Source: Ferruginibacter sp. | Lineage (GTDB): Bacteria > Bacteroidota > Bacteroidia > Chitinophagales > Chitinophagaceae | Direction of reading: 5' to 3' | NCBI GenBank assembly: GCA_013141115.1 | Contig: JABFRP010000002.1 | Span: 310,001 to 374,000 of the forward strand | Length of the DNA stretch: 64,000 bases | Part shown: positions 38,926-60,961 of the stretch, piece by piece | Position numbering within the stretch: position 1 is the stretch's first letter | Layout: each line of letters begins with the position of its first letter | Notes under the pieces: model-generated | What the model was told of the DNA's origin: nothing | What the model saw: the letters and a program-made list of their open reading frames with translations, nothing else | Database searches by the model: none | Made by a program: the position numbers and the translations under genes

Positions 38926-38945
38926 CGCCAGTTCTTTAAACATCT

Positions 38946-39064: not shown

Positions 39065-39100
39065 TCAGATCTTCAGCCTAAATACTTTCATCAAAATATT

Positions 39101-40503: not shown

Positions 40504-40615
40504 GAAAATATTAAGTTGGCAACGTTTTCGTAAATGCGATATCAGTATTTTGGCAAACTTTTATACTGTTTATTAATATTTATCTAAAATTAACCCGGTA
40601 AACAAATAAAAGAGG

Positions 40616-40643
40616 TTGTTTTAATAGTTAAACATTATCTTTG
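40616..40643 (+). promoter_or_regulatory. Candidate promoter of the cys block (TTG - 17 nt - TATCTTTG)
   Basis: TAnnTTTG match at 40636-40643 whose last base begins the GTCTA-N9-TAGAC operator. Confidence 0.6.
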
Positions 40644-40661
40644 TCTACTAATTATATAGAC
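40643..40661. promoter_or_regulatory. GTCTA-N9-TAGAC palindrome, copy 1 (upstream of cysH)
   Basis: gtctactaattatatagac. Confidence 0.7.
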
Positions 40662-40670
40662 TTTAATGCT

Positions 40671-40736
40671 ATGCTCTATATCTCTCACATAAGCTGTATG
40701 TGCAAATGTTGCAATCAAATGGTTTACCGTTGTTGA
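40671..40736 (+). CDS. Candidate 21-aa Cys-rich leader peptide upstream of cysH
   Basis: ATG..TGA: MLYISHISCMCKCCNQMVYRC (5 Cys in 21 aa), between operator copy 1 and cysH. Confidence 0.5.
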   Translation: MLYISHISCMCKCCNQMVYRC

Positions 40737-40776
40737 ACCTGTATAGCAATTATTTTTCCATTATATAATATTAAAA

Positions 40777-41511: not shown

Positions 41512-41528
41512 AAATTTTTTAAACAGCA

Positions 41529-41547
41529 GTCTACTAATTTTATAGAC
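41529..41547. promoter_or_regulatory. GTCTA-N9-TAGAC palindrome, copy 2 (cysH-cysD gap)
   Basis: gtctactaattttatagac. Confidence 0.7.
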
Positions 41548-41557
41548 TAATAAATAT

Positions 41558-42466: not shown

Positions 42467-42603
42467 GCGTAGGGTGGGTCACTCCTTAAAGAGTGGCTCA
42501 CCCGGTAAAGCAGCATAGTATAACCAAATTCAAAAGCTATTATTCATCATTGACAATTCACTATTCACCCATAATATTTTAACTAATTAAATAAAAGCAA
42601 CTA

Positions 42604-43845
42604 ATGGATATTTTAAGATTTATAACTGCAGGAAGTGTTGATGATGGTAAAAGCACATTGATCGGCCGCTTGCTATATGATAGCAAAAGCATTTTAGCCG
42701 ATCATTTGGAAGCAATTGAAAAAAGCACCAAGAATAAAGAGAATGGCGAGATAGACCTTGCTCTGTTAACCGACGGACTTAGAGCAGAAAGGGAACAGGG
42801 TATTACCATTGATGTGGCCTACAGGTATTTCAGCACCGATAAAAGAAAATTTATTATAGCCGATGCGCCTGGCCATGTACAATACACCCGTAACATGATA
42901 ACCGGTGCAAGTAATGTTGACCTGGCCATCGTATTAATTGATGCAAGACATGGTGTGGTGGAACAAACCCGCCGGCATAGTATCATCTCTTCCCTGCTGG
43001 GTATACCGCATGTAGTGGTGGCCATTAATAAAATTGATTTGGTTAACTACTCGGAAGATGTATACGATAATATAGTGATCGAATACAGTAAACTGGCCAA
43101 ACAACTGGGCATTGAAAATGTTACCTATATTCCGCTGAGTGCATTAAATGGCGACAATATTGTAGACAGATCTTTAAAAACGCCCTGGTACGAAGGCAAA
43201 GCACTATTAGAATTTTTAGAAGGGATAGAAATTAAAGATGCCGTGAATCTTACGGATACCAGGTTCCAGGTACAATATGTTATTCGTCCGCAAACAGAAG
43301 CATTACACGATTACCGTGGTTATGCAGGAAAAATTACCAGCGGTATTTATAAAAAAGGCGACAAAGTAAAAGTATTACCGGCAGGCATTGAAACTACAAT
43401 TGATAAAATTGAAATTGCCGGTGTGGAAGTAGAAGAAGCATTTGCCCCTCAAAGTGTAACGCTTTTATTAATTGAAGATATTGATATCAGCCGTGGCGAT
43501 TCGATAGTTAAAACTACTGAGGACATTGCGGCTACCAATGAAGCAGACGTATTATTTTGCTGGATGGGCGACAAACCATTGCAAAATGGCAACAAATATT
43601 TGCTGCAGCATAATAACCGCCGCGTAAGAGCGGTAATTAAAAACCTGGAATATAAAATAGACGTGAACAGTTTGGAACACATTGAAGATGTGCAGCAGGT
43701 AAAACTGAATGAAATAGTAAAAGCATCAATAAAAACGGCGGCACCTATTGTATTTGACCCCTATAAAAAGAACCGCAGCAATGGCGCTGCCATATTAATA
43801 GACGAAACCAGCAATGCAACAGTAGCAGCAGTTTTATTTCAATAA
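42604..43845 (+). CDS. cysN: Sulfate adenylyltransferase subunit 1 (GTPase)
   Basis: GSVDDGKSTLIGRLLYDSK; DAPGHVQYTRNMITGAS. Confidence 0.96.
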   Translation: MDILRFITAGSVDDGKSTLIGRLLYDSKSILADHLEAIEKSTKNKENGEIDLALLTDGLRAEREQGITIDVAYRYFSTDKRKFIIADAPGHVQYTRNMITGASNVDLAIVLIDARHGVVEQTRRHSIISSLLGIPHVVVAINKIDLVNYSEDVYDNIVIEYSKLAKQLGIENVTYIPLSALNGDNIVDRSLKTPWYEGKALLEFLEGIEIKDAVNLTDTRFQVQYVIRPQTEALHDYRGYAGKITSGIYKKGDKVKVLPAGIETTIDKIEIAGVEVEEAFAPQSVTLLLIEDIDISRGDSIVKTTEDIAATNEADVLFCWMGDKPLQNGNKYLLQHNNRRVRAVIKNLEYKIDVNSLEHIEDVQQVKLNEIVKASIKTAAPIVFDPYKKNRSNGAAILIDETSNATVAAVLFQ

Positions 43846-43851
43846 CAAAAA

Positions 43852-44682
43852 ATGGAACAACAATTTTATCAATCAATAGTAAATTTTAAAAAACAACAGG
43901 GTTGTTCATTTCCTGATGCTGCAAAGGCAAAGGATTTTGTAGTAAAACTTTTTGAAGTTTTGTTCATCTGTAAAACAGAAGCGGATAATAACAGCTTTGA
44001 AATTGAATCGCAGTTAAAAAAATTAGAAGTTCAATTACAATTATTACTCTACCCTGTTTTGCACAGCGAGGTGCAATGCAATGAACAAACAACAAAATTC
44101 TTTGAAACCATACCGGCACTGTATAAAAAACTATTGCTGGATGCAAAAGCCATTTTCGAAGCCGACCCGGCAGCAAAAAATATTGATGAAGTATTAATTG
44201 CCTACCCCGGTTTTTTTGCCATAGTGGCCCATCGTATTGCGCACCAGTTACAGCAACAGAAAGTCCCTTTGCTGCCACGTATCATCAGCGAATATGCACA
44301 TAGCAAAACAGGCATCGACATTCACCCTGCTGCAACCATTGGCGAATCATTTTGTATCGATCACGGTACTGGCATTGTAATTGGCGAAACCACTATCATT
44401 GGTGATCACGTAAAAATATTCCAGGGTGTTACATTAGGCGCATTGAGTGTGCAAAAAGAAAAAGCGAGTGAGAAAAGGCATCCTACTATTGAAAACAATG
44501 TGGTCATCTATTCCGGTGCAACCATTTTAGGGGGAGCCACTGTTGTAGGCCATGATAGCGTTATTGGCGGCAATGTTTGGCTTACCAAAGCCGTGCAGCC
44601 TTTTTCAATTGTATACCAGCAATCAGATATCACCATACAGGATAAAAAAACATTTACAGAACCTTATAATTACTTTATTTAA
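43852..44682 (+). CDS. cysE: Serine O-acetyltransferase
   Basis: Left-handed beta-helix: GIDIHPAATIGESFCIDHGTGIVIGETTIIGDHVKIFQGVTLGALS. Confidence 0.93.
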   Translation: MEQQFYQSIVNFKKQQGCSFPDAAKAKDFVVKLFEVLFICKTEADNNSFEIESQLKKLEVQLQLLLYPVLHSEVQCNEQTTKFFETIPALYKKLLLDAKAIFEADPAAKNIDEVLIAYPGFFAIVAHRIAHQLQQQKVPLLPRIISEYAHSKTGIDIHPAATIGESFCIDHGTGIVIGETTIIGDHVKIFQGVTLGALSVQKEKASEKRHPTIENNVVIYSGATILGGATVVGHDSVIGGNVWLTKAVQPFSIVYQQSDITIQDKKTFTEPYNYFI

Positions 44683-44691
44683 AACATAACA

Positions 44692-45603
44692 ATGAAAGCA
44701 AATAGTATTTTAGAAACCATAGGCAACACGCCGCATGTAAAGATCAACCGTCTTTTTGGCAACAGCCACGAAGTGTGGATCAAATTAGAAAGAAGTAATC
44801 CCGGTGCAAGCATCAAAGACCGTATTGCATTAGCAATGATAGAAGATGCAGAAAGCAAAGGCTTATTAAATAAAGACAGCGTAATTATTGAGCCCACCAG
44901 TGGCAACACAGGCATTGGTTTGGCATTGGTAGCGGCAGTAAAAGGTTATAAGATCATTTTGGTAATGCCCGAAAGCATGAGCATCGAAAGGCGCAGGCTG
45001 ATGAGTTTATATGGTGCTGAATTTGTTTTAACACCAAGGGAGAAAGGCATGAAAGGCGCCATTGAAAAAGCTAACGAATTAGCAGCAGAAACAAAAAACA
45101 GTTGGGTGCCGCAGCAGTTCGACAATCCTGCTAACGCAGAGATACACCGCAAAACAACAGCCGTGGAAATTTTAAATGATTTCCCTGGAGGATTAGATTA
45201 TATTATAACTGGTGTTGGTACCGGTGGACATATCACCGGCGTGGCAGAAGTACTGAAAGCAAAATGGCCTGATCTTAAAGTGTTTGCAGTAGAGCCGGAA
45301 TTATCACCTGTATTAAGTGGTGGCGCTCCATCACCGCATCCATTACAGGGTATTGGTGCAGGATTTGTGCCTTCTATTTTAAACAGCAAAATTTTAGACG
45401 GTGTAATACAGGTAGGCAAAGATGAAGCCTATGCATATGCACAACGTAGCGCAAAAGAAGAAGGCATTTTTGTGGGTGTTTCCACAGGCGCTTCATTAGC
45501 GGCTGTTGCAAAAAAATTAACAGAGATACCTGCAGGATCAAAAGTGCTGACCTTTAATTATGATACCGGCGAAAGATATTTGAGTATTGAGGGATTGTAT
45601 TAA
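44692..45603 (+). CDS. cysK: Cysteine synthase
   Basis: [42 protein letters not shown]. Confidence 0.95.
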
Positions 45604-45749
45604 GAACCCCCTCCGCCCCCTGAAGGGGGAACTGATTGCGAAGAAGATATAGGCGAAGATTAGATTTTATAAAAAGTATTTCAAAAATAAAGTTACCCCT
45701 TCCAGTCCCTCTCCTTAGGAGAAAGGTTGGGGTGAGGTTAACAGACCAG
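45604..45749. repeat. Composite intergenic repeat (ccccctccgccccctgaaggggga...ccctctccttaggagaaaggttggggtgaggtt)
   Basis: Palindromic ccccctgaaggggg and ctctccttaggagaaagg; related sequences at 48268-48400 and within the A2M CDS. Confidence 0.6.
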
Positions 45750-46550
45750 ATGACAGAAACAAATAAAAATACCGGCAAAGTAATTCTTGCCGCTGCAGGT
45801 TGCGGCGACCCGGAATTAATTACTGTAAAAGCAGCCCGCTGGTTACAACAGGCGGATATTGTTTTAACGGATCGCTTAGTGAGTGAGAAAATTTTACAGG
45901 AATATGTGCGGCCTGGTGTTGAAATAATTTATGCAGGTAAACAAAATAACAAAGCTGCATCGGTGCCGCAGGAAGACATTAATCAACTACTGGTGAAATA
46001 TGCTTTGCAGGGAAAGTTAGTGGTACGTTTAAAAGGTGGAGACATTGCCTTTTTCAGCAATGTGCTGGACGAATTGCAAACGCTTACAGACAACAATATT
46101 CCTTTTGAAATCATTCCAGGCGTAACGGCTGCTTCCGGCGCTTCGGCTTATGCCGGCATTCCGCTTACCGCAAGAGAGCATGCAACATCTGTACGTTTTC
46201 TCACTTGTTATAAAACGGATATGCTTAACAATGAATACTGGGCCGAATTAGCTGCAACAGCAGATACGCTGGTTTTTTACATGAGCAGCGAAACACTGGA
46301 TACCGTTGTTGAAAATTTAACTGCACGTAAAATTGATGCAGCAAAATTATTAGCCGTGGTGGAACAGGCCACCACGCCACAACAAACTGTTGCTGTTTGC
46401 AATTTGTATGAGTATGCAAACACATTAAAGGGAAAAGCATTTGCTTCGCCTACATTGGTGATCATTGGAAAAGTGGTAGCACTGCATAACAAATTTGCCT
46501 GGCAAAAAAATGCGATCAATAACGAATTATACTTTAAACCCGTTAGTTAA
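45750..46550 (+). CDS. cobA: Uroporphyrinogen-III C-methyltransferase (start revised to 45750)
   Basis: VILAAAGCGDPELITVKAARWLQQADIVLTDRLVSEKIL; VRLKGGDIAFFSNVLDE; EIIPGVTAASGASAYAGIPLT. Confidence 0.93.
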   Translation: MTETNKNTGKVILAAAGCGDPELITVKAARWLQQADIVLTDRLVSEKILQEYVRPGVEIIYAGKQNNKAASVPQEDINQLLVKYALQGKLVVRLKGGDIAFFSNVLDELQTLTDNNIPFEIIPGVTAASGASAYAGIPLTAREHATSVRFLTCYKTDMLNNEYWAELAATADTLVFYMSSETLDTVVENLTARKIDAAKLLAVVEQATTPQQTVAVCNLYEYANTLKGKAFASPTLVIIGKVVALHNKFAWQKNAINNELYFKPVS

Positions 46551-46568
46551 AAAAACAAATTACCAACA

Positions 46569-48266
46569 ATGCTGGCCGACGTAAAATTAAAAGTACTGGA
46601 AGAGTTAATTAAAAATTCAAGCAACGAAGAGTTGATATGGATGAATGGCTATTTGAATGGCATTGTAAAAAATAAATTAGTGCAGGCTACGGTACCCATT
46701 AGTGACGCAGTATCAAAAAAGATCACCATTGTTTACGGTACAGAAACCGGCAACTCAAAAAAACTGGCTACCGATTTTGCAGCAAAAGCAAAACAAAATC
46801 ATGTACACGCCAAAGTGGTGGGTATGGATCAGTACCGCTTAACTGACCTGGCAAAAGAAGAATACTTATTAGCCGTTATCAGCACCCACGGCGAGGGTGA
46901 ACCACCTGCAGCGGCAAAAAAGTTTTACGATCATATTCATAACAATGGTTTTAAATTAGAAAAACTGCAGTACAGCGTACTGGCATTGGGCGATACTTCT
47001 TATCCCCTGTTTTGTAAAACGGGAGAAGAAGTGGATGAGCAATTAAATAAGCTCGGCGGCAACCGCATTGCCCCTTTACAAAAATGCGATGTGGAATATG
47101 ATGAAGAAGCCAACAGCTGGATCAATACTGTTTTAAAAAATATCACTGCTAAAAAAACTGATGAAGTTGTTGTAGTTCCGGCAGTGGCAACGCCGGCAGC
47201 TAAAAAAGGCAAGCAGGCTTATACCGGAAAAATATTAACTAAAATAAATTTAAACGACAGGGGTTCAAACAAAGAAACTTATCATATTGAAATTGAAGCA
47301 GCAGGTTTGGATTACCAATGCGGCGATTCTATTGGCATTGTTCCCGAAAATGATTCGCAGGTGGTTACCGATATTATTGCTGTTACCAATGCGGATGGCA
47401 ATAAAAGTGTAGAATTCAAAAAAGAAAAATTTACGATTTACGAACTGCTGAAAAGAAAGATCAATATTTTTCATTTAACAGAACGGTTGATTCAACAATA
47501 CGCTACAGTAACCGGTCACGAAATTCCGCATGGCCGTGCCGACCTGCTTGATATTTTAAAAGCTTATCCCGTTAAAAACGCAGCACAGTTTGAAGAGATA
47601 CTGGTAACATTAAATGGCATCTCGCCAAGATTGTACACCATTGCTTCCTCCCCTGCAGCACATGAGGGTGAAGTGCATATTGTGGTGGTTAAGGATACTT
47701 TTATTGCGGATGATAAAAAAAGATTTGGCCTTTGTTCGGATTATCTTAGCCAGTTAAAACTAAACAGCAACCAGCAATTTTTTGTGCAGCCCAACAAAAG
47801 ATTCCGATTGCCTGCCGAAAATAAAGATATTATTATGGTTGGGCCGGGCACCGGTATCGCCGCATTCCGTTCGTTTTTAGCCCAGCGTGACGCAACAGGT
47901 GCAACAGGCAGAAACTGGTTATTTTTTGGAGAACAATATTTTGCAAGTGATTTTTTATACCAGACAGAGATACAGAACTGGCATGAGACAGGTGTACTTA
48001 CAAAAATAAACCTTGCTTTCAGCCGTAATCAAAAAGAAAAAATTTATGTGCAGCACAAAATGAAAGAGCATGCTGCCGAATTGTATGAATGGTTGAATGG
48101 AGGCGCTTCATTTTTTGTATGTGGCAAAAAACACCCCATGAGTACAGATGTGGAACATGCATTGTTGCAAATAATAGAACAACACGGTAATAAAACACTG
48201 GAAGAAGCAAAACATTTTTTGCACCTGATGGAAGAAGAAGGGAGGTATGAGAAGGATGTGTATTGA
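46569..48266 (+). CDS. cysJ: Sulfite reductase flavoprotein subunit (CysJ-type)
   Basis: Flavodoxin domain YGTETGNSKKLA..STHGEGEPP; GPGTGIAAFRSFLAQRDA NADP-binding; 565 aa. Confidence 0.93.
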   Translation: MLADVKLKVLEELIKNSSNEELIWMNGYLNGIVKNKLVQATVPISDAVSKKITIVYGTETGNSKKLATDFAAKAKQNHVHAKVVGMDQYRLTDLAKEEYLLAVISTHGEGEPPAAAKKFYDHIHNNGFKLEKLQYSVLALGDTSYPLFCKTGEEVDEQLNKLGGNRIAPLQKCDVEYDEEANSWINTVLKNITAKKTDEVVVVPAVATPAAKKGKQAYTGKILTKINLNDRGSNKETYHIEIEAAGLDYQCGDSIGIVPENDSQVVTDIIAVTNADGNKSVEFKKEKFTIYELLKRKINIFHLTERLIQQYATVTGHEIPHGRADLLDILKAYPVKNAAQFEEILVTLNGISPRLYTIASSPAAHEGEVHIVVVKDTFIADDKKRFGLCSDYLSQLKLNSNQQFFVQPNKRFRLPAENKDIIMVGPGTGIAAFRSFLAQRDATGATGRNWLFFGEQYFASDFLYQTEIQNWHETGVLTKINLAFSRNQKEKIYVQHKMKEHAAELYEWLNGGASFFVCGKKHPMSTDVEHALLQIIEQHGNKTLEEAKHFLHLMEEEGRYEKDVY

Positions 48267-48267
48267 G

Positions 48268-48600
48268 TCCCCTCCTTCCCTACAGGATTGCAGGGAGGAA
48301 CTATGGAGGAGATCTTAGCGAATTTGACCTCACCTATCCTCTCCTTCAGGAGAGGGAAATGGAGCAGAACTTAGCGAAGATTGTGAAGGAGATTATGCTT
48401 TTAGCTCCGTAGGAGCGGCATTTTGGTAAAAAGACAGAAAGCGTTTTGCAAAGCCCCGGAGGGGCGACATTTTCTAAAGCAAAACACAATTAAAGTTCAA
48501 TAAAGATTTACAGTATAAGAGTGATTATTTCACTTTTTTACTAAAAAAATGAAATAACAAACAGCCGTTGCCAATGAAGTTCAATAGAATTTATCAGCCC
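48268..48600. repeat. Intergenic repeat cluster: ccctcc..gggagg units plus agctccgtaggagcggcattttggta / agccccggaggggcgacattttcta units
   Basis: Direct and palindromic similarities within the cysJ-cysI gap. Confidence 0.65.
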
Positions 48601-48620
48601 GGCTCAAAAGAAAAATAAAA

Positions 48621-50288
48621 ATGGCAGCAAAAAATAATTTATCGGCAATTGAAAAAATAAAAACCGCCAGTGATGGCCTCAGGGGAACTATAAAAGAAAG
48701 CTTAACTGACGAGATCACCGGTGCTATTCGCGAAGATGACCAGGCAGTAATAAAATTTCATGGTATGTACCAGCAGGATGACCGTGACAGAAGAGAAGAA
48801 CGTGCAGAAAAAAAACTGGACCGTTTGTATTCTTTTATGATACGGTTAAGATTACCGGGTGGTTTTATCAGTGCAAAAAAATGGATCGCTGCCAATGAAA
48901 TTGCCAATGAGAATTCCACCGGCGTTATTAAAATTACCACCCGGCAAACCATACAATTGCATGGCATTGTAAAATCAAAAATTAAACCCACCATCAGTGC
49001 GTTTAATAAAGCCAACTTAGATTCTATTGCTACCTGTGGCGATATCAACCGTAATGTTACCTGTGCATCGCACCCGGTGCAATCGCCCTTACATGCCGAA
49101 ATATTTTCGTATGCCAGCAAGATCAGCGACTTGCTTTTTCCAAAAACAAAAGCCTATTACGAAATATGGATTGATGATGAAAAGATAGCCGACAAAAATG
49201 AGGAAATTGATCCATTATACCAGGACAGGTATTTACCCCGAAAATTTAAAATCGGCATTGGTATTCCCCCTAATAACGAAGTGGATGTTTTAATAAATGA
49301 TGTAGCACTGATTGCTGTTATAGAAGACGAAAAATTAAAAGGATTTAATATTGCTATTGGCGGCGGCTTATCGGCCACGCATGGCAATGCAGAAACTTAT
49401 GCAAGACTGGCAACAGTAATTGGCTTTGCAGATACAGAAGAAAAAATTTTAAAAACTATTTACGAAGTGGTAACGGTGCAAAGGGATTTTGGTAACCGCA
49501 GCGATAGAAAATTAGCCCGTTTAAAATACACTGTTGATAAATTGGGCGTAGAAAAGTATAAAGAAGAAGTGGAGAAAAGGACTGGCTTTAAATTAGAACC
49601 TGCAAGGCCTTATACTTTTGATGAACGCAAAGATTATTACGGCTGGCATAAAGCAGCCAACGGATTATGGTATTACACATTATTTGTAGAGAATGGAAGA
49701 GTATTGGATGATGAACAAGTGGCGATGAAAACAGCACTTTTGGAAATTGCCAAAACAGATAAGTGCAATTTTTTATTTACCAGTAGCCAGAATATTATTA
49801 TCAGTGATGTTGCGGAGGCCGATAAAGAAAACATTAATGCATTACTGGAATCATTTAACTTGGTTGAGCACACTGATAAGGCTTCACTGTTGCGCAAAAA
49901 TTCCATTGCCTGTGTGGCATTGCCTACCTGTCCGCTGGCATTGGCAGAAGCACAACGTTATTTGCCGGAGCTCATCAGCAAAATTGAGCCATTGCTAGAT
50001 AAACATGATTTAAGTAACAACGATATTATTTTACGCATGACCGGCTGCCCCAATGGTTGCGGCAGAAGTGCGGCTGCAGAAATTGGTTTTATTGGCACTG
50101 CACCCGGCAAATACAATTTACATTTGGGCGGCGATAATGAAGGGCAACGATTAAATAAAATTTATAAAGAAAATTTAGAAGAGGCAGCAATTTTAACGGA
50201 ACTGGATAGCTTATTTGCTACCTTTAAAAAAGAAAAAAACAGTAAAGAAAGGTTTGGTGACTTTGCCATAAGAAAGCAACTGGTATAA
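48621..50288 (+). CDS. cysI: Sulfite reductase hemoprotein subunit (CysI/nitrite-sulfite reductase)
   Basis: [49 protein letters not shown] siroheme/4Fe4S motif. Confidence 0.93.
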
Positions 50289-51523
50289 TGATAAACTATA
50301 ACGACATACTGCAACAAAAAATAGCGGCTTTAAAAGAAAGCGGCAGTTACCGTTATTTTTTAGATGTAAATAAAAGTGCCCAGCATTTTCCCCGTTTTTA
50401 TTACGAGAATGAAATGGGCGAAAAAAAGATGGCGGTTAACTGGTGCAGTAACGATTATATGTGTATGAGCGTGCATGAGGATGTGATAGGCAAATTAAAT
50501 TTTGTATCACACCGCAGCGGTGCAGGCAGTGGCGGCACCAGGAACATTTCGGGCACTACCATTTATCATAAGGAGTTAGAAAAAACATTATCGGCATTAC
50601 ATAAAAAAGAAGCCGCACTTTTATTTAGCGGCGCTTATATTGCCAATCTTACTGCTTTAAGTACACTGGGTAAATTATTTACCAATACGGTTTTTATTTC
50701 TGATGAAGAAAACCATGCTTCCTTAATTGAAGGGATGAAGGGCTGCCATGCCGAAAAATTTATTTTCCGGCATAATGATACCAACCATTTAGAAGAAATT
50801 TTACAAGGCGTTGCCGCAGACAGGCCAAAGATCATTGTTTTTGAATCGGTATATTCTATCAGCGGTACTATTGCCCCGGTGGAAGAAATTATTTTACTTG
50901 CCAAAAAATATAATTGTCTTACTTATATTGATGAAGTGCATGCGGTGGGTTTGTATGGCGAAGATGGCGGCGGCATTACATCACAATTGCATTTGCAACC
51001 TGGTATTGATATTATTAACGGCACATTGGCAAAAGGCTTTGGCGTTATAGGCGGATATATTGCGGCCAGTAAAAATATTGTGGATGCCGTAAGAAGTTTT
51101 GGAAGCGGATTTATTTTTACCACTTCGCTGCCCCCGGCTATTTGTGCAGCGGCAACAAAAAGTATTGAGTTGCTGAGCAATCAAAATGAATGGCGTATAA
51201 AATTTCATCACAACATACAATTATTGCGCAGCAAATTAAAAGCACATCATGTTGATTTTAATGATAACGCTTCTCATATTACTACCATAACTATTGGTGA
51301 TGAGGTTGCCTGCAAACAAATTGCAGATAAATTATTAAGGGAATTTGGGCTGTACCTGCAGCCGGTAAATTATCCCACGGTAAAAAAAGGCAACGCCTGT
51401 TTAAGAATAACTGTTACACTAAAGCACGACGAAACTGAAATGACCTACCTGGCAGAAAGTTTAAAAAAACTGTTAGCTGCTTTTACTAACACCGGGCATC
51501 ATCATCAACAACAAAATTCTTGA
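50288..51523 (+). CDS. hemA: 5-aminolevulinate synthase (ALAS)-like alpha-oxoamine synthase
   Basis: [74 protein letters not shown]; overlaps cysI stop and is followed by hemB. Confidence 0.85.
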
Positions 51524-52515
51524 GTCAATCTTACCATAGCAACCGCCGCAGGATAAGAGCTAACCAGCACATTCGTGAGTTGGCAGCAATGCTGCAGTTA
51601 AATCATAAAGAATTTATTCAGCCTTTATTTTTAGATGAAAGTATCAGCAAGCAAACATCCATTGCAACTTTAAATGAAATCAATGCTGATACCCTTGAAT
51701 CTTTACTACAGCAAATAGCAAACGACTTACAAAAAGGCATCAGCAAATTCTTATTATTTCCGGTGCCGTTAAAAAAGGCTGAAAACAATTTTGATTACAG
51801 TTTTGTAACAAAAGCCTTACAACAAATAAAAAATAAATTTGGCAATACTGTTTGGATTGCAGCAGATGTTTGCCTTTGTGCGTATACCAGTCACGGGCAT
51901 TGCGGCATTTTAAACCCTGAAAAAGATAAAGTTTTAAATGATGCATCGGTAAAAGAATTAGCCAATTACTCATTACAATTAGCACAAGCCGGTACCGATT
52001 GCATTGCGCCAAGCGATATGATGGATGGGAGAATTGGTGCCATCAGGAATATTTTAGACAATAATCAACTGGATGAAGTAAGCATTATGAGTTACTCTGC
52101 AAAATTCAGTTCGCAATTTTACGGGCCATTCCGGGATGCTTGTAAATCAACACCCGGTAACAACAATAAATTACAAGACAGAAAAACTTACCAGGCTTCT
52201 TCATTCAATAAAAACGACGCCATACTTTCAACATTAAGAGATATTGAAGAAGGTGCAGATATTGTAATGGTAAAACCTGCCCTGCCCTATTTAGATATTA
52301 TTCATGAACTGAGTGAAACGATACAACTTCCCTTAGCAGCTTATCATGTAAGTGGCGAATACCAGAGTATAGAATTGCTGGTACAAAATAATATTATTGA
52401 AAGAGATAAAGCACATCTGGAAATTTGGACGGCATTAAAAAGAGCTGGCGCCAACATCATTATATCTTATGCAGCAAGGCATGCTAAAGAATGGATAGAA
52501 AAAATTGAATACTAG
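51520..52515 (+). CDS. hemB: Porphobilinogen synthase (delta-aminolevulinic acid dehydratase), TTG start overlapping previous stop
   Basis: [16 protein letters not shown] zinc-site motif; [25 protein letters not shown]. Confidence 0.93.
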
Positions 52516-52530
52516 TCTTGTCTCCGCCAG

Positions 52531-52547
52531 TCCCGATAATATCGGGA
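52531..52547. repeat. Short perfect hairpin tcccgat-aat-atcggga in hemB-sirC gap
   Basis: 7-bp arms, 3-nt loop. Confidence 0.55.
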
Positions 52548-52594
52548 GAGGAAATGGAGATGATTATGTTATATACATTGGCAAAATTAATTTC

Positions 52595-53179
52595 ATGCAA
52601 AACAGCAATAATTTATTCCCCATATTTTTAAAATTAGAAAACCTCCGCATATTGATTGTAGGCGGTGGTTATGTGGGTATGGAAAAATTGGAAGCGGTTA
52701 TTTCTAATTCACCCGCCACAGCAATTACGTTGGTGGCCACACAGATTAGCGATGCCATAAAAGAAGTAGCTGCACAATATCCAAATATTACTTTAGTAGA
52801 AAAGCCATACGACATAAATGACCTAGCGGATAATGATATAGTAATTGCAGCTATAAATGACCCCGTAATAAGCCAACAAGTAGTAACAGATGCTAAAAGC
52901 AAAAAAATTCTGGTTAATGCTGCCGATAAGCCGGATTTATGTGATTTTTATTTAAGCTCTGTTGTAAAAAAAGGCAATCTTAAAATTGCCATCAGTACCA
53001 ACGGCAAATCGCCTACTATTGCAAAAAGGGTAAAAGAAGTATTGAATGAAACTTTACCAGATGAAATTGATGCCCTTTTAGATAACATGCAAAGTATACG
53101 TAATAAACTAAGTGGTGATTTTGCAGAAAAAGTAAATCAGTTGAACGAACTTACCAAAAGCCTTATAGATAAGAAATAA
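52595..53179 (+). CDS. Precorrin-2 dehydrogenase / sirohydrochlorin ferrochelatase-like (start revised to 52595)
   Basis: FPIFLKLENLRILIVGGGYVGMEKLEAVI; STNGKSPTIAKRVKEVL. Confidence 0.9.
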   Translation: MQNSNNLFPIFLKLENLRILIVGGGYVGMEKLEAVISNSPATAITLVATQISDAIKEVAAQYPNITLVEKPYDINDLADNDIVIAAINDPVISQQVVTDAKSKKILVNAADKPDLCDFYLSSVVKKGNLKIAISTNGKSPTIAKRVKEVLNETLPDEIDALLDNMQSIRNKLSGDFAEKVNQLNELTKSLIDKK

Positions 53180-53196
53180 AAATTTTTATAATAATA

Positions 53197-53215
53197 GTCC
53201 ACTAATTTTGTAGAA
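53197..53215. promoter_or_regulatory. GTCTA-N9-TAGAC palindrome, copy 3 (degenerate, upstream of TSUP gene)
   Basis: gtccactaattttgtagaa (two arm mismatches to the other copies). Confidence 0.5.
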
Positions 53216-53273
53216 TAACAATTTTCCTTAAATTTACATTTAATCGCTATACAGGTGATTGCAATATAAAGTT

Positions 53274-54323
53274 ATGACACAGCATACACCTGATCCAATA
53301 GATGATTTAATAGAATCGAGTGCCACCGAAGAGTTACAGGAAAAATATATTGATCTTGTAAATGAAGAGAATAGCAAGAGCAGGTATATAAAGTGGCTTA
53401 TCATTGTATTAGTACTTGCTGGTATTGCCGCTGCTATAATAATAACTTTTACACAAACCTCTCCGGAAACAGATACTAAAGTTTATAAATTTCTTGAATC
53501 TTTTGTAACAAAAAGTTTCCTGTTATACTTATTAGTGGGCCTTTTTGCACAAATGGTTGACGGAGCATTGGGCATGGCTTACGGTGCTACCTGTACTGCT
53601 TTTTTAGCCAGTCTTGGAGTAGGTCCTGCACAAAGTAGCGCCAGTATACATATTGCCGAAGTGTTTACCACGGGAGCTTCTGGTATATCCCACTTCAGGT
53701 TAAAAAATGTAAATAAAAAATTATTCCGTGGCCTGGTAATACCGGGTATTATTGGTGCAGCTACCGGTGCATTAATATTGAGTTTACTGGAAAAAGGCGG
53801 ATACGTGACCGAAGAACAGTTTCAAAAATATTTTAAACCATTTACTACTATCTACACTTTAATACTGGGTGCTATTGTAGTAAGAAAAGCGTTTCAAAAA
53901 AAACCACTTAAGCCACGCAAAACAAAAATCACACCACTGGCATTAGTAGGTTCATTCTTTGATGCTATAGGTGGCGGAGGATGGGGCCCAATAGTTACCT
54001 CTACATTATTAGGCAGGGGTCGCAGCGTTAATTATACTATTGGTTCTGTAAATGCTGCTGAATTTTTTGTTGCATTTTCCAGTTCAGTGATCTTTGGTTT
54101 CTTTTTAGGTTTAGACCCTGGCTTATGGCAGGTAATATTGGGATTAATAATTGGTGGTGTATTTGCTGCTCCACTTGCAGCTTTCCTGGTAAGAAAAATA
54201 AAACGTAAGCCATTGATGATCGCTGTAGGTTTTTTTATTATTTTTCTTAGCCTTAATACACTTACAAAGCTGTATTTAAAATTTGATATTTTCAATATTA
54301 TTGCAAGTGCTTTAATAAAGTAA
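53274..54323 (+). CDS. TSUP (TauE/SafE) family sulfite/sulfur-compound permease (start revised to 53274)
   Basis: LFAQMVDGALGMAYGATCTAFLASLGVGPAQSSASIHIAEVFTTGASGISH; two-repeat membrane topology. Confidence 0.88.
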   Translation: MTQHTPDPIDDLIESSATEELQEKYIDLVNEENSKSRYIKWLIIVLVLAGIAAAIIITFTQTSPETDTKVYKFLESFVTKSFLLYLLVGLFAQMVDGALGMAYGATCTAFLASLGVGPAQSSASIHIAEVFTTGASGISHFRLKNVNKKLFRGLVIPGIIGAATGALILSLLEKGGYVTEEQFQKYFKPFTTIYTLILGAIVVRKAFQKKPLKPRKTKITPLALVGSFFDAIGGGGWGPIVTSTLLGRGRSVNYTIGSVNAAEFFVAFSSSVIFGFFLGLDPGLWQVILGLIIGGVFAAPLAAFLVRKIKRKPLMIAVGFFIIFLSLNTLTKLYLKFDIFNIIASALIK

Positions 54324-54683: not shown

Positions 54684-57248
54684 ATGAAAAGAGTTTTAGC
54701 ATTTTTATTAGCCCTGTTACCATTATTGGCAGTGGCACAACAAAATTATACGCAGCAATTGAGCGGCCGCGTAGTAAACGAACACGAAGAAGCGATACCT
54801 TCAGCAAGTGTATCGATAAAGGGAACTTCAGCAGGTACTGTTGCAGATGTTACCGGAAGGTTTTCGCTTACAATCAATCAAAAATTACCTTATACAATAG
54901 TAGTTTCTTCAACAGGATATATACCCAGGGAAGTTATAATTAAGGATACCGAAACAAACGATATATTAATTCATTTACAATCAAAGTACCAGCGTGATAC
55001 CATTATCATTACCTCAAGGCGCCGCAGGGAAGTACTGCAGGATGTTCCCATTCCTATTACAGTAATAGGTGGTAAACTGGTAGAAGATGCAGGAGCTTTT
55101 AATGTTAACCGTGTAAAAGAACTTATTCCCTCAGTGCAATTGTATACCTCTAATCCACGCAATACCGGTGTAAATATTCGTGGTATAGGTTCGCCATTCG
55201 GCCTAACCAATGATGGCCTTGATCCGGGTGTGGGTATTTATGTAGATGGTGTATATTATGCCCGCCCTGCAGCAGCAACATTTGACTTTATTGATATTGA
55301 TCAGATAGAAGTTTTACGTGGCCCGCAAGGAACTTTATATGGCAAGAATACTACAGCCGGTGCCATTAGTATAACCACACACAAACCAAGTTTTAAACCC
55401 GGAGGCTCTTTTGAAGTAAGCTATGGTAATTACGGTTACGTTCAGGCTAAAGCATCTATCACCGGCCCTTTAAGCAAAAAGCTTGCGGCACGTTTTTCTT
55501 TTTCGGGTACACAGCGTGATGGCTTAGTTGATAATGTACGCACTTTAAAGAAAACAAACGATATTAATAACCTTGGTCTTCGTGGCCAGTTACTATATAA
55601 ATTATCTGACAAAACAAGCATTATATTAAGTGGCGATAACTCACGCCAGCGCCCTGATGGTTATGCACAGGTGGTAGCGGGTGTTGTTAAAACAAAACGT
55701 GCAGGTTACCGCCAGTTTGATTCCATCATTGCGGCCCTCAATTATCAATTGCCAAGCCGCAATGCTTTCGACAGAAAAATTGACCATGACGTTCCCTGGA
55801 ATTCGGGTAACGACTTAGGTGGTGTGTCGCTAAATGTTGATAGCAAAATAGGGCCAGGCACATTAACTTCTACCACAGCCTGGCGTTACTGGAATTGGGA
55901 TCCGTCTAACGACAGGGACTTTACCGGATTACAAGCTCTGGCTAAATCTCAAAATCCTGCTAAGCATAAAAACTGGTCACAGGAGTTTAGATATGCAGGT
56001 GAGTTCTCCTCCCGTTTAAGTGGTGTGGTGGGTTTATTTTATATTGACCAGGAAGTAAAAATTACAGGTACTGAAGAGTCAGGGAGAGATCAATGGCGCT
56101 TTTCGCAAAGTTCTACAAGCAATAACTGGAAAACACCGGGGCTTTTGGATGGATATGGTATTAACACCAATGCCTCCATCAAATCTCAAAGTGCCGCAGC
56201 ATTTGCAAACGTAGATTGGGAAGTAATAGATCGTTTACATGTATTACCCGGTATTCGCTTAAACTATGATAAGAAGGTAGTGAGTTACAACAGGAAAACA
56301 TACGGTGGTTTACAAACTAATGATGCTGCATTACTGGCTATAAAGAGAGGTGTGTATGCCGACCAGGCTTATGATGCCAATGCTGATGAGACCAACCTCA
56401 CTTATCAAATTACTGTAGCGTATAAAGCAGATAAGCGCATTAATGCTTTTGCAACTTATGCTACCAGCTTTAAGCCTGTAGGCGTTAATGTGGCGGGTTT
56501 GCCCACCCTTACTAACGGTGATGCTGATGTTGATCTGTCGGTTATTAAACCCGAAGATGTTAAGACGGTACAAGTTGGTGTTAAAACCAGCCCCTTTGAT
56601 AATTTCACCCTCAATTTAACTTTCCATAATTCTGATATTAAAGATTATCAAACCAATGTGCAATCGCCGCAGTTAGGTGTTAACCGTGGCTATATTGCTA
56701 ATGCCGAAAAAGTAAATGTAAAAGGTTTGGAACTTGATGCCAACATCAAAGCTAATCAAAGCTTTACCTTTTACGGAGCTGTTGCTTATACAGATGCCAA
56801 ATATGTTAAGTTTACCAATGCACCATTACCGCTGGAAGAAACAGGATTAACAGTAAATAATGTGCAAGTAGCTTTTAAAGATATTTCGGGTGGAGCGCTT
56901 CCTGGTATTTCTAAATGGGCGGGATCATTGGGCGGAGAGTTTACTACTCCAACTGCTTTCTTAGGTAAAGCCGGTAAATTCTTTACTGCAATAGAAAGTT
57001 TTTACCGCTCTTCATTCTCTTCCAGCGCATCACCTTCGGCATTTTTAAATATAGATGGCTATACATTGGTTAACGGAAGACTTGGTTTCAGGTCGGTTAA
57101 TGGATTATCTGTTTTTGTATGGGGGCGTAATTTGTTCAACAAAGATTATTACGAACAACTATTACCTGCAGGTGGTAATGCCGGCCATTATGGAGCTGTT
57201 TTAGGAGACCAAAGAACTTACGGCGCAACTTTACGCTACACATTCTAA
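54684..57248 (+). CDS. TonB-dependent receptor with N-terminal carboxypeptidase-regulatory-like domain
   Basis: Plug DVPIPITVIGGKLVEDAGAFNVNRVKELIPSVQLYTSNPRNTGVNIRGIGSP; terminal YGATLRYTF. Confidence 0.92.
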   Translation: MKRVLAFLLALLPLLAVAQQNYTQQLSGRVVNEHEEAIPSASVSIKGTSAGTVADVTGRFSLTINQKLPYTIVVSSTGYIPREVIIKDTETNDILIHLQSKYQRDTIIITSRRRREVLQDVPIPITVIGGKLVEDAGAFNVNRVKELIPSVQLYTSNPRNTGVNIRGIGSPFGLTNDGLDPGVGIYVDGVYYARPAAATFDFIDIDQIEVLRGPQGTLYGKNTTAGAISITTHKPSFKPGGSFEVSYGNYGYVQAKASITGPLSKKLAARFSFSGTQRDGLVDNVRTLKKTNDINNLGLRGQLLYKLSDKTSIILSGDNSRQRPDGYAQVVAGVVKTKRAGYRQFDSIIAALNYQLPSRNAFDRKIDHDVPWNSGNDLGGVSLNVDSKIGPGTLTSTTAWRYWNWDPSNDRDFTGLQALAKSQNPAKHKNWSQEFRYAGEFSSRLSGVVGLFYIDQEVKITGTEESGRDQWRFSQSSTSNNWKTPGLLDGYGINTNASIKSQSAAAFANVDWEVIDRLHVLPGIRLNYDKKVVSYNRKTYGGLQTNDAALLAIKRGVYADQAYDANADETNLTYQITVAYKADKRINAFATYATSFKPVGVNVAGLPTLTNGDADVDLSVIKPEDVKTVQVGVKTSPFDNFTLNLTFHNSDIKDYQTNVQSPQLGVNRGYIANAEKVNVKGLELDANIKANQSFTFYGAVAYTDAKYVKFTNAPLPLEETGLTVNNVQVAFKDISGGALPGISKWAGSLGGEFTTPTAFLGKAGKFFTAIESFYRSSFSSSASPSAFLNIDGYTLVNGRLGFRSVNGLSVFVWGRNLFNKDYYEQLLPAGGNAGHYGAVLGDQRTYGATLRYTF

Positions 57249-57300
57249 TCAACTATCAAAATTTTTAATTTTAAAAAACAAAATAGTCTTTCATTTTTAG

Positions 57301-57423
57301 CATAGCAAGCAATCGTTAAAGGCGCCCTTATTCTTAAGGGGGCTTTACATAGCCCTGTGGCCGAGAGGAAAGGTTAGGATTTGCAAAATCTTTTACGTTG
57401 GTTCGAATCCAACCGGGGCGTCA
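57301..57423 (+). ncRNA. Tandem structured RNA unit 1 (5' hairpin module plus tRNA-like domain)
   Basis: About 50-nt leader (catagcaagcaatcgttaaaggcgcccttattcttaagggggctttacat) followed by tRNA-like 57351-57421; related to unit 2 about 190 bp downstream. Confidence 0.55.
57351..57421 (+). tRNA. tRNA-Cys(GCA) or tRNA-Cys-like structure
   Basis: Cloverleaf by eye: acceptor AGCCCTG/CGGGGCG (A1:G72 mismatch), D-arm GCC/GGT, anticodon loop TTGCAAA, T-arm GTTGG-TTCGAAT-CCAAC, discriminator T. Confidence 0.55.
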
Positions 57424-57491
57424 AAATAAAATTACAGTCAATACAGTTTTACAATAAAATTTAACCGACTAAACTAAAACGATTACAAGAG

Positions 57492-57611
57492 CATAGCAAA
57501 CGATCGTTACGGCGCCCTTAGTCTTAAGGATGCCCTTAAATAGCTCTGGCCTTTGGAGGCTACGTGATCTCATAAATTACAGATGGTGGTTCGAATCCAT
57601 TCAGAGCGTCA
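57492..57611 (+). ncRNA. Tandem structured RNA unit 2 (5' hairpin module plus tRNA-like domain)
   Basis: Leader catagcaaacgatcgttacggcgcccttagtcttaaggatgcccttaaat, same length as and homologous to unit 1 leader. Confidence 0.5.
57542..57609 (+). tRNA. tRNA-like structure with CAU (Met-type) anticodon loop
   Basis: Acceptor AGCTCTG/CAGAGCG (same A1:G72 mismatch), anticodon arm GTGAT-CTCATAA-ATTAC, T-arm GGTGG-TTCGAAT-CCATT; D-arm reduced (no positions 8-9). Confidence 0.35.
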
Positions 57612-57656
57612 AAAGAAAAAATTATAACTTGCAATAAAATACAATTACAAGTACTG

Positions 57657-58424
57657 ATGACAAAGAAACTATTTACAACAATTACCTTAAGCATTATTGC
57701 AATTTTGTTTTGCAGCAATATCAATGCACAGGTAAAACAAACGGAAGATGTAAATCAAATTTGGACAGGATATTTTAACCAAACCCGCTTTACCAATAAA
57801 CTGGGTATGTGGGCGGATCTGCATTTACGAACCAAAGAAGATTTTGCCACTAATTTTTCTACAGGTATTGTAAGGCTGGGGCTTACTTACTACATTAATG
57901 ATGTTACAAAATTTACATTAGGCTACGCTTATGTAAATCATTTTCCGGCAGATGCACATAAAAAAATATCGCAGCCCGAACACCGGCCCTGGCAGCAAAT
58001 TCAATGGCATACCAAATACGGTAAAAAAAGAATGATGCAATGGTTCCGGCTGGAAGAACGGTACCGGCGAAAAATATTAAACGATTCCACATTGGCCAAT
58101 GGCAGCAGCTTTAACTGGAAACTGCGTTACAATATCTGGTACGATATACCACTTACAAAAAAAGGTATTGTGCCCAAAGCCTGGTCTTTTGTATTGAATG
58201 ACGAGTTGCATATTAATTTTGGTAAACAAATAGTGAATAATTATTTTGACCAGAACCGCTTTTTTGCAGGATTTAAATACCAGCTCTCTGATCACAATAA
58301 CCTGCAGTTTGGCTACATGAATGTATTTGTACAAACTGCGGCAGGTAATAAGTACAGAAATATTAATGCTGCAAGGGTATTCTTCTTTCAAAATTTAGAC
58401 TTGAGGAAAAAGAAAACACTATAA
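57657..58424 (+). CDS. DUF2490-like outer-membrane protein
   Basis: Signal peptide; QIWTGYFNQTRFTNKLGMWADLHLRTKEDF; terminal NAARVFFFQNLDL. Confidence 0.8.
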   Translation: MTKKLFTTITLSIIAILFCSNINAQVKQTEDVNQIWTGYFNQTRFTNKLGMWADLHLRTKEDFATNFSTGIVRLGLTYYINDVTKFTLGYAYVNHFPADAHKKISQPEHRPWQQIQWHTKYGKKRMMQWFRLEERYRRKILNDSTLANGSSFNWKLRYNIWYDIPLTKKGIVPKAWSFVLNDELHINFGKQIVNNYFDQNRFFAGFKYQLSDHNNLQFGYMNVFVQTAAGNKYRNINAARVFFFQNLDLRKKKTL

Positions 58425-58451: not shown

Positions 58452-59342
58452 ATGGATAAAATATATTTAAGCGATGCAGGCCCCAAAGTTTCTCCTGCTA
58501 TTTATGGCTTCTGGAGGTGGAGTACAGAAGTGGATAATACAGTAGAAACAATGGAAAAAATTGTGAACCTGTGTCTTGAGCTGGGCATAAATACTTTTGA
58601 CCATGCAGATGTGTACGGCTCGTGGAAAAGTGAAGAAGTGTTTGGTAAAGTGCTGGCACAAAGATCTTTTAAAAGAGAAGATATTGTGTTGTTTACCAAA
58701 TGCGGATTAAATATTCCCAACCCGGGGAATCCTGATATCCGTATTAAACATTATAATACTTCTAAAGAACATATTGTACAAAGCGTGGATAATTCTTTAC
58801 GCAAATTAAAGACCGACTATATCGATATTTTTTTATTGGATCACCTGGATCCTGTTTCTAATTTGGAAGAAACCGCCCTGCAACTTGACCAGTTAAGAAG
58901 CTCGGGTAAAATAAAAAATATCGGTGTTGCCAACTTTACTGTTTTTCAACACCAGTTGCTGGCTTCTTATTTAAGAACACCGATCGTTACCAACCATATC
59001 GAATTAAATTTATTAAATACGGCTGCATTAGATAATGGCCAGCTGGACTATATCAAACAAAAATACATGCGGCCATTAGTATCTGCCCCACTTGCAGGCG
59101 GACGAATAGAAACCGGTACCGATAAACTAGCCATAAGAGTGCATCAGAAACTGGAAGATATTGGTAAAAAATATGGTGCCAATGTAGAATCAACTGCTGT
59201 AGCATGGTTAATTAAATTAGGCGCCTTACCTATTATTGGCACTACCAACGAACAAAGAATAAGAAATATCGTAAATGCTTTTTCTGTCGATCTGGACAGG
59301 CAGGATTGGTACGAATTATACCTGGCTTCCAAAGGCGAATAA
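58452..59342 (+). CDS. Aldo/keto reductase
   Basis: GINTFDHADVYGSWKSEEVFG; LKTDYIDIFLLDHLDP; GTTNEQRI. Confidence 0.92.
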   Translation: MDKIYLSDAGPKVSPAIYGFWRWSTEVDNTVETMEKIVNLCLELGINTFDHADVYGSWKSEEVFGKVLAQRSFKREDIVLFTKCGLNIPNPGNPDIRIKHYNTSKEHIVQSVDNSLRKLKTDYIDIFLLDHLDPVSNLEETALQLDQLRSSGKIKNIGVANFTVFQHQLLASYLRTPIVTNHIELNLLNTAALDNGQLDYIKQKYMRPLVSAPLAGGRIETGTDKLAIRVHQKLEDIGKKYGANVESTAVAWLIKLGALPIIGTTNEQRIRNIVNAFSVDLDRQDWYELYLASKGE

Positions 59343-59467: not shown

Positions 59468-59743
59468 TTGATGATCTTATCATACAACAATATGCAACAA
59501 CTTTTACCTTCCATAATTGAAGGGCAGGTGATTTGCAATGCCGACATACCTGTTGGTGGTGCCCATGTATATTTTGTTCCCAGGCTGGAAGAATCTATCA
59601 CTACAGATGAAGGTGCATTTAAAATTGCCACCTGGATGCCATTACCAATAACATTAATTATTTGTCATAAAAATTACCAGAGCTGCAAGCTTACCGTTTC
59701 AAACACTGCACAAAAACTGGTCATCAAATTAAAGGAAAAATAA
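59468..59743 (+). CDS. Small carboxypeptidase-regulatory-like domain protein
   Basis: IEGQVICNADIPVGGAHVYFVPRLEESITTDEGAFKIATWMPLPITLIICHKNYQS. Confidence 0.65.
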   Translation: MMILSYNNMQQLLPSIIEGQVICNADIPVGGAHVYFVPRLEESITTDEGAFKIATWMPLPITLIICHKNYQSCKLTVSNTAQKLVIKLKEK

Positions 59744-59752
59744 AATTGCCTT

Positions 59753-60961
59753 ATGCACATCAATATTCTTGGATTTGCGATCCCCCTATTTGTTGGTTTA
59801 ATTTTAACCGAATATGTCATTTCCAAAAAGAAAGGGCTACCCTATTTTAATTTGCACAGTTCTATTGCCAACATTAGTATTGGTATTGCCGAAAGGCTGG
59901 CTGATGTTTTTGTGGCTGGTATATTTTATTATGTATACGATACTGTGCAGAAAAATTATGGGCTATTTAATATTAACTCCGGTGTATTTGTATGGATACT
60001 GTTGTTTTTAGCTACCGATTTTATCTGGTACTGGTATCATCGTCTGGGACATGAAATAAATATTTTCTGGATGGCGCACATTGTACACCACCAGAGCGAA
60101 GATTATAATTTAACTGTATCGGCACGTATAACCGTTTTCCAGGCCATACTACGTCATGGCTTTTGGCTGATACTACCATTGCTGGGTTTCAATGCCGGCA
60201 TGATAACAATAATACTTTTAGTACATGGCCTGTATCCATTCTTTATTCATACCCGTTTAATTGGCAAGCTGGGCATACTGGAATATATTTTAGTTACACC
60301 ATCACATCACCGTGTACACCATGCCAGCAACGAAAAATATTTAGATAAAAATTATGGCGATGTCCTCATCATCTGGGATAAACTGTTTGGCACTTTCCAA
60401 AAAGAAGAGGAAGCCCCGGTATATGGATTAACCAAACCGCTGAACACCTATAGTTTTCTATGGCAGCATTTTCATTTTTTTATAGAAATTGGGCTTGCCG
60501 TAAAACATACCCGTGGCTTTACAAAAAAACTAAAAGTGCTATTTGGCAAACCCGAAAAAGTAGACCCCTCTCTTCGTAAAAAGGCAGAGGAGATATTCAG
60601 CATTCGTCAAAGCCAGGTAACCATTGACAAGCCATTGAACAAGTATGTAGTTTGGCAAATGATCGTTTTGCTGATCAGCCTTTCTGTTTTTATTTTATTT
60701 GAGCAGTACACTTCTGTTAAAATAAAAGTGGCTTTTTCGCTGGTTACTATTTTAACACTCATTAATTGCGGCGCCATAATGGAACAAAAGCGCTGGGTAT
60801 TTTATATGGAATATATCAGGTTAGCAGTATTACTCTATTTGCCTTTTTACTCTACCAGTTACTGGCAAATGAAAACAGCACTCATCATTTTTGTATTGTG
60901 TATAATCATTTCTTACTACAACACTTTGCAGAAAAACTATTACCGTTATGTATTAAAATAA
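59753..60961 (+). CDS. Sterol desaturase / fatty acid hydroxylase family protein
   Basis: Histidine motifs HRLGHE, HIVHHQSED, HHRVHHASN. Confidence 0.92.
   Translation: MHINILGFAIPLFVGLILTEYVISKKKGLPYFNLHSSIANISIGIAERLADVFVAGIFYYVYDTVQKNYGLFNINSGVFVWILLFLATDFIWYWYHRLGHEINIFWMAHIVHHQSEDYNLTVSARITVFQAILRHGFWLILPLLGFNAGMITIILLVHGLYPFFIHTRLIGKLGILEYILVTPSHHRVHHASNEKYLDKNYGDVLIIWDKLFGTFQKEEEAPVYGLTKPLNTYSFLWQHFHFFIEIGLAVKHTRGFTKKLKVLFGKPEKVDPSLRKKAEEIFSIRQSQVTIDKPLNKYVVWQMIVLLISLSVFILFEQYTSVKIKVAFSLVTILTLINCGAIMEQKRWVFYMEYIRLAVLLYLPFYSTSYWQMKTALIIFVLCIIISYYNTLQKNYYRYVLK

Follow-up and report, generated by a model that had tools for sequence, protein, structure and literature searches.

Features of the locus

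The window analysed here (the whole 64,000-nucleotide stretch of Ferruginibacter sp. DNA, C1:310001-374000) carries a sulfate-to-cysteine gene block preceded by a SAM riboswitch, a TonB-dependent receptor gene, two tandem tRNA-like units each with its own leader, and a series of genes that recur beside related tRNAs in other genomes (Table 1). The block encodes homoserine dehydrogenase, PAPS reductase, CysD, CysN, a CysE-like protein, CysK, SUMT/CobA, CysJ and CysI (CysD and CysK being named by sequence resemblance only), together with 5-aminolevulinate synthase (ALAS), HemB, siroheme dehydrogenase and TauE. At the tRNA-like element itself, Rfam returned no match to a riboswitch or T-box, and nothing but tRNA; the SAM riboswitch lies 18 kb away.

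Table 1. Positions of the features in the window
Feature	Positions	Strand	Basis
SAM riboswitch before homoserine dehydrogenase	38944..39066	+	RF00162, 68.2 bits
Sulfate-to-cysteine block	39250..54323	+	Profile and sequence matches
TonB-dependent receptor, immediate upstream neighbour	54684..57248	+	Pfam; conserved neighbour
Leader 1: AGCATAGCAAGCAATCGTTA plus hairpin GCGCCCTTA..TTAAGGGGGC, 3-T tail	57300..57350	+	Related elements at 3' ends of other genes
Unit 1: tRNA-Cys' (GCA), 72 nt, A1.G72, U73, U33	57351..57422	+	ARAGORN, RF00005, family model
Leader 2, homologous to leader 1	57491..57541	+	Alignment
Unit 2: tRNA-like paralogue, anticodon loop CTCATAA (CAU), A1.G72, U73	57542..57610	+	Family model, MFE fold, one homologue
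DUF2490 protein, immediate downstream neighbour	57657..58424	+	PF10677; orthologue survey
Aldo/keto reductase, recurrent neighbour	58452..59342	+	PF00248
Small CarboxypepD_reg-like protein, recurrent neighbour	59471..59743	+	PF13715, E 6.5e-5, below Pfam cut-off; cluster in 16 loci
FA_hydroxylase membrane protein (OlsE-like), recurrent neighbour	59753..60961	+	PF04116, E 3e-28; NF052566 below cut-off

Two further features of the window deserve mention in their own right. Inside the sulfate-assimilation block, ALAS (TIGR01821, 492 bits, above cut-off) is followed by HemB (50288-52515), and in several relatives ALAS, HemC/D-like, HemB and siroheme genes also lie in that block, an arrangement that apparently gives Bacteroidota a C4-pathway route devoted to siroheme. 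Towards the end of the window, two near-identical IS200-like (Y1_Tnp) transposase reading frames, one of them truncated, lie about 0.7 kb apart on the reverse strand (62094-62456 and 62785-63306).

The two tRNA-like units start 191 nt apart and can be aligned over both leader and tRNA, so that the block must have been duplicated as a whole. Their acceptor stems differ by paired changes (AGCCCTG/CGGGGCG in unit 1, AGCTCTG/CAGAGCG in unit 2), both possess a TTCGAAT T-loop, and their anticodon loops read TTGCAAA and CTCATAA, respectively. In all of these respects, as in the shared A1.G72 mismatch and U73, the description given by an earlier, sequence-only reading of this DNA (two homologous units with Cys and Met anticodon loops and covarying acceptor stems) is accurate. 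Its suggestion of a genuine tRNA-Cys accompanied by a paralogue also holds, the paralogue being a divergent one. Unit 1 is called tRNA-Cys(GCA) by ARAGORN, scores 48.6 bits with the Rfam tRNA model (RF00005) and 91.5 bits with a model of the family described below, and forms a class I cloverleaf with a 7/5 acceptor/T-stem and a 4-nt variable loop, in which a G1-C72 first pair is absent and replaced by A1.G72. Unit 2 is missed by ARAGORN and reaches only 20 bits with the Rfam model (cut-off 29); the family model finds it at 30.4 bits (E 1e-5), and its minimum free energy fold shows every arm of the cloverleaf, the D-arm having 4 bp and the D-loop 4 nt (GCCT-TTGG-AGGC). An identity argument built on a G15:G48 pair was discarded, because position 48 is C.

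An extra tRNA-Cys gene

The genome (5.44 Mb in 5 contigs) contains about 50 tRNAs above the Rfam cut-off, including a canonical tRNA-Cys at C3:238914 (GGTCCTT...AGGGACC-T) and at least four other CAU tRNAs. A third tRNA-Cys(GCA) lies in an array of 15 divergent tRNA genes at C1:890132-892183, which looks like the arrays of mobile elements or phages. A search with PF01406 yielded a single CysRS gene, at C1:1283853, about 0.9 Mb from the window, and no second one in the genome. With a canonical gene elsewhere and one synthetase gene, unit 1 is thus an additional, second type of tRNA-Cys (here termed tRNA-Cys'), and the notion that it might be the only tRNA-Cys of the genome can be set aside. The same is true throughout the family, where all 42 of the 42 carrier genomes tested possess a canonical-type tRNA-Cys at another locus. 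The idea that the A1.G72 tRNA of Pedobacter is the only tRNA-Cys of that genus was likewise abandoned, since the Pedobacter genomes checked also carry a canonical GGTCGAG-type gene.

A conserved family of mismatched tRNA-Cys genes

A BLAST search of 299 genomes of the family, with unit 1 and its leader as the query, identified close homologues of unit 1 in other genera, most of which share A1.G72 and U73, while the remaining positions of their acceptor stems vary in paired fashion. When these 299 genomes were searched by pattern, and 85,488 species genomes were scanned with a yield of 109 stretches, carriers turned up in Chitinophagaceae, Pedobacter, Sediminibacterium, Desertivirga and some Cytophagales/Flammeovirgaceae. 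Among the 81 distinct sequences of the main class (class A), several pair types each are found at 3:70, 5:68, 6:67, 50:64 and 51:63; U33 is present in 80, and GCA, A37 and U73 in all 81. Pair 1:72 is A.G in 80 of the 81, although the scan pattern required A1, G72 and U73, so that the fixation of these bases is partly due to how the class was selected; the same agreement on A1.G72 is seen in the BLAST set and in loci found through DUF2490, neither of which was selected on that pair. A mismatch at 1:72 is also a feature of initiator tRNAs; their three G-C pairs at 29-31:39-41 are absent, 31:39 being U-A in most class A sequences. The recurrence of the gene in a small number of related operon types of many Bacteroidota species indicates that the extra tRNA is real and conserved.

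The gene is nevertheless dispensable, being missing from most of the 299 family genomes in the pattern search and broken in two others. In a Lacibacter-type genome (G218, locus L327, near 1440-1475), the T-loop is split by a palindromic insertion of about 20 bp (CCTGCC..GGCAGG), and in a second genome (G155, locus L332) a degenerate copy is without a normal anticodon arm.

A smaller group of 18 sequences (class C) has A1-U72, G73 and a nearly identical acceptor stem (AGTTACG/CGTAACT). GCA is retained in all 18 and U33 in only 5, the other loops reading TGGCAAG, ACGCAAG, TAGCAAA and so on; RNAs of this kind should decode poorly. In a tree from a short alignment these sequences form one clade (support 0.85). 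They are a derived sister clade of class A in the same gene setting, which has lost U73 and, for the most part, U33.

Unit 2 is far rarer. A specific model detected it in 2 of 93 genomes of the genus, namely this one and a second Ferruginibacter genome (G129, locus L130), in which the CAU unit lies between a TonB receptor gene and a DUF2490 gene, near siroheme and TauE genes, and is called tRNA-Met by ARAGORN. Between the two copies, a G-U pair at 49:65 has become C-G and D-stem pairs have changed together; unit 2 is thus a tRNA-like gene that is maintained in at least two species, if a rare one. The prospect raised at the outset, that unit 2 might be a non-conserved, decayed copy, does not hold in the strict sense of a sequence private to this genome, and a widespread Met partner is rejected on the same count. 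The twin arrangement of Cys and Met units is found in this genome only, among the genomes searched.

Genes that accompany tRNA-Cys'

For a test of linkage, the 20-kb regions around 50 tRNA-Cys' loci of Chitinophagaceae were compared with canonical tRNA-Cys loci in 20 of the same genomes. Orthologues of the window genes (sulfur genes, the TonB/DUF2490/aldo/keto reductase group, or the CarboxypepD-reg or FA-hydroxylase genes) are present at 45/50 tRNA-Cys' loci versus 0/20 canonical ones, in genomes that are related, so that the loci are not independent, and with CarboxypepD-reg queries that were derived from the tRNA-Cys' loci themselves. The proposed association with sulfur genes is upheld as a conserved one, strong against the matched control (29/50 versus 0/20), but it is incomplete, because an approximately equal number of loci lie beside the CarboxypepD-reg/FA-hydroxylase pair, with or without sulfur genes. 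Within 3 kb, CarboxypepD-reg or FA-hydroxylase genes are found at 23 of the 50 loci, and TonB, DUF2490 or aldo/keto reductase genes at 20. Gene order around the tRNA varies between genera, which indicates that the neighbourhood is not one frozen block. In Pedobacter, tRNA-Cys' is not near these sulfur, TonB or FA-hydroxylase genes in the loci examined.

The gene is frequently packed tightly against its neighbours, often lying 0-30 nt, and in many loci 4-28 nt, from a reading frame on the same strand and sometimes overlapping its stop codon. Eighteen of 30 FA-hydroxylase orthologue loci have a flanking tRNA-Cys' (directly 3' of the gene in 17). Class C tRNAs (for example, loci L356-L371) immediately follow FA-hydroxylase genes on the 3' side. 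At four loci (L358, L361, L365 and L368) the TGA or TAG that ends the FA-hydroxylase reading frame extends into the first base or bases of the tRNA, so that the hydroxylase mRNA would lose its stop codon when the 5' end of the tRNA is processed. A survey of 30 DUF2490 orthologue loci recovered eight intact copies of tRNA-Cys', the split and the degenerate copies described above (one each) and the CAU unit of G129; at many of the 30, the TonB and DUF2490 genes are adjacent with nothing between them. In several Ferruginibacter genomes the tRNA follows homoserine dehydrogenase, and in three of these the dehydrogenase gene is preceded by a SAM riboswitch, like its counterpart in the window.

The leader element

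The hairpins of the two leaders lie at approximately 57321-57343 and 57510-57533; relative to dinucleotide shuffles, the stem of the first is significant (z -3.9) and that of the second is weaker (z -1.75). The sequence-only reading had regarded the leader as part of the tRNA units. Its distribution contradicts this: the same combination of CAAGCAATCGTT and a hairpin occurs where other genes end, on the 3' side and with no tRNA, and also downstream of other tRNA-Cys' genes, and it precedes the tRNA in only 7 of 114 class A contexts (following it in 12) and in none of 18 class C contexts, so that it cannot serve as a hallmark of the tRNA. The 14-mer AGCAAGCAATCGTT is found in the genome 4 times exactly and 9 times with at most one mismatch, versus 1 in a reversed control, and several of these sites, like others in relatives, lie at gene ends where the motif is followed by a hairpin and a long run of T without any tRNA. 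Whereas several of the copies at other gene ends have at least 7 T, the T-run before the tRNAs is short, with 3 T in leader 1, and no terminator is called in 57150-57750. In our reading, the leader belongs to the 3' end of the gene upstream and has been weakened in places where transcription has to go on. A pairing of leader and acceptor strand as a switch was also considered and dropped: unit 1 folds in this manner in silico, its homologues do not do so consistently, and no leader-tRNA pairing was conserved when they were folded.

Taken by itself, the element resembles a terminator that is repeated, with a conserved motif ahead of it, and it matched no known family. It is dispersed across Chitinophagaceae, with examples at window positions 57304-57318, at C1:1208378, C3:58172 and C2:117655, and in loci L071 and L076-L078 of relatives.

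Possible roles of tRNA-Cys'

The best explanation, which we favour tentatively and at somewhat less than an even chance, is that unit 1 is an auxiliary tRNA-Cys that is co-expressed with the supply of cysteine. The tRNA would travel as a 'gene' among the others in a sulfur-related operon set that comprises the TonB receptor, DUF2490 protein, aldo/keto reductase, CarboxypepD-reg protein and FA-hydroxylase, often with cys or met genes. No promoter is evident for the tRNA alone; it would be transcribed with its neighbours, released by RNase P and 3' processing and matured with CCA, and those members that retain U73, GCA and U33 would be charged by the housekeeping CysRS. The purpose would be to furnish extra Cys-tRNA when the cysteine-supply operon is on, thereby matching Cys-tRNA to cysteine supply. 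Unit 2 would be a lineage-specific tandem copy with an anticodon changed to CAU and a shrunken D-arm, while the leader, copied in the same duplication, would be a 3' element that belongs to the gene upstream and resembles a terminator, with a U-tract weak enough to allow read-through.

In favour of an auxiliary tRNA-Cys are the canonical copies elsewhere, the compensatory changes, the linkage, the close same-strand reading frames and the SAM riboswitch upstream; against it are the finding of just one CysRS gene, the dispensability of the tRNA gene and its position away from sulfur genes in Pedobacter. Pair 1:72 can matter to CysRS, the ordinary form of which rejects A1:U72 according to a review on unusual tRNAs (PMC7609411); this, too, counts against a role in supply. 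Such a role does not account for the A1.G72 mismatch, for the loss of U33 and U73 from class C or for the overlaps with stop codons, all of which keep readings based on RNA processing or on a non-translational function alive. A bolder proposal, possible if doubtful, is that tRNA-Cys' is a dedicated operon-encoded tRNA in which the fixed 1:72 mismatch marks a use other than elongation (as a cysteine-status signal, or as a Cys donor or processing element for sulfur assimilation and the FA-hydroxylase pathway), a use that would have outlived decoding or Cys charging in one Bacteroidota clade.

It is rather unlikely that the tRNA shape acts mainly as a processing mark ('tRNA punctuation'), a site for RNase P and RNase Z to split an operon transcript, with charging and decoding secondary and with the hairpin ahead of the tRNA shielding the 3' end thus created on the TonB mRNA. 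Such a role would suit the class C tRNAs, which keep the cloverleaf and acceptor stem while losing U33 and U73, as well as unit 2, its G129 homologue and the degenerate L332 copy, in which the acceptor and T-arms persist but the D or anticodon arm is reduced; it would also suit the hairpins that, in several TonB-tRNA loci, stand about 7-11 nt before the start of the tRNA, and the four FA-hydroxylase genes in which 5' cleavage would cut the stop codon. However, RNase P requires none of the U33, A37, U73 and GCA that class A keeps, GCA is invariant even in class C, and in relatives many TonB-DUF2490 pairs have no tRNA between them.

A non-translational, regulatory Cys-tRNA, in which the 1:72 mismatch would make a poor elongator that serves as a sensor, decoy or dedicated donor for sulfur status or the FA-hydroxylase pathway, is unlikely. 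The mismatch is indeed fixed while other acceptor pairs covary, the partnership with CarboxypepD-reg and FA-hydroxylase genes is tight, and class C retains GCA without U73 and mostly without U33; yet no enzyme that uses an aminoacyl-tRNA was recognised among the recurrent neighbours, class A possesses the full set of decoding features, and conserved leader-tRNA pairing is lacking. That the gene is a redundant duplicate, hitch-hiking by chance in a drifting neighbourhood, is improbable: its patchy distribution and broken copies would fit, but compensatory changes extend over dozens of species in several families and its neighbours are non-random. Finally, a pair of mimics that jointly sense or compete for the charging of both sulfur amino acids is very improbable, for although both anticodons lie side by side in a sulfur locus and the CAU unit of G129 occupies the same TonB-DUF2490 slot, this reading needs a twin pair that, among the genomes searched, one possesses, in a genome with several other CAU tRNAs, and unit 2 is without the A73 of a typical tRNA-Met.

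Comparison with known systems

Transfer RNA genes are usually seen as housekeeping parts whose position in the genome is without meaning. Here, in many genera, an extra, mismatched tRNA-Cys accompanies sulfur-assimilation, outer-membrane and lipid-hydroxylase-like genes, whereas the ordinary tRNA-Cys does not, providing a testable case of a tRNA that is either coupled to the provision of the amino acid it carries or co-opted for another job. Class A, class C, the CAU unit and the broken copies constitute a natural series along which the features for decoding, for charging and for processing are lost one without the other.

Both tRNA genes inside protein operons and tRNA-Cys variants with an altered 1:72 pair are already known; in the open-licence literature, nothing was found on an additional class I tRNA-Cys that has A1.G72 and is linked to sulfate assimilation, nor on a tRNA-Cys linked to Chitinophaga. 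Canonical bacterial tRNA-Cys(GCA) shares with tRNA-Cys' the GCA anticodon, U33, A37, U73, a 13:22 mismatch in the D-arm and a class I cloverleaf, but has G1-C72 and A49-U65 where tRNA-Cys', as an extra copy inside metabolic operons, has A1.G72 and usually G49-C65. A synthetase operator mimic of the thrS type sits in the leader of its cognate synthetase gene, unlike a locus so distant from the CysRS gene. In the metY-nusA-infB operon of Escherichia coli, a tRNA gene heads a protein operon. That arrangement (cf. PMC6511841) shares the packing of a tRNA beside same-strand protein genes and differs in the tRNA involved, in the metabolic and outer-membrane genes and mismatched acceptor end seen here, and in that co-transcription here is presumed. 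The punctuation of mitochondrial transcripts by tRNAs (for example, PMC4394434) likewise involves tRNAs that lie a few nucleotides from, or overlap, the ends of reading frames, with mRNA processing being only a proposal in the present case. The selC* tRNA-Cys variants (Mukai et al. 2017, reviewed in PMC7609411) are also a second type of tRNA-Cys, with an altered 1:72 in some species, U73 and GCA (or UCA); they display a tRNA-Sec-like 8/4 structure with a long variable arm and are linked to selB*/cysS* in some groups, whereas tRNA-Cys' is a normal 7/5 class I tRNA with a 4-nt variable loop, in a genome with one CysRS.
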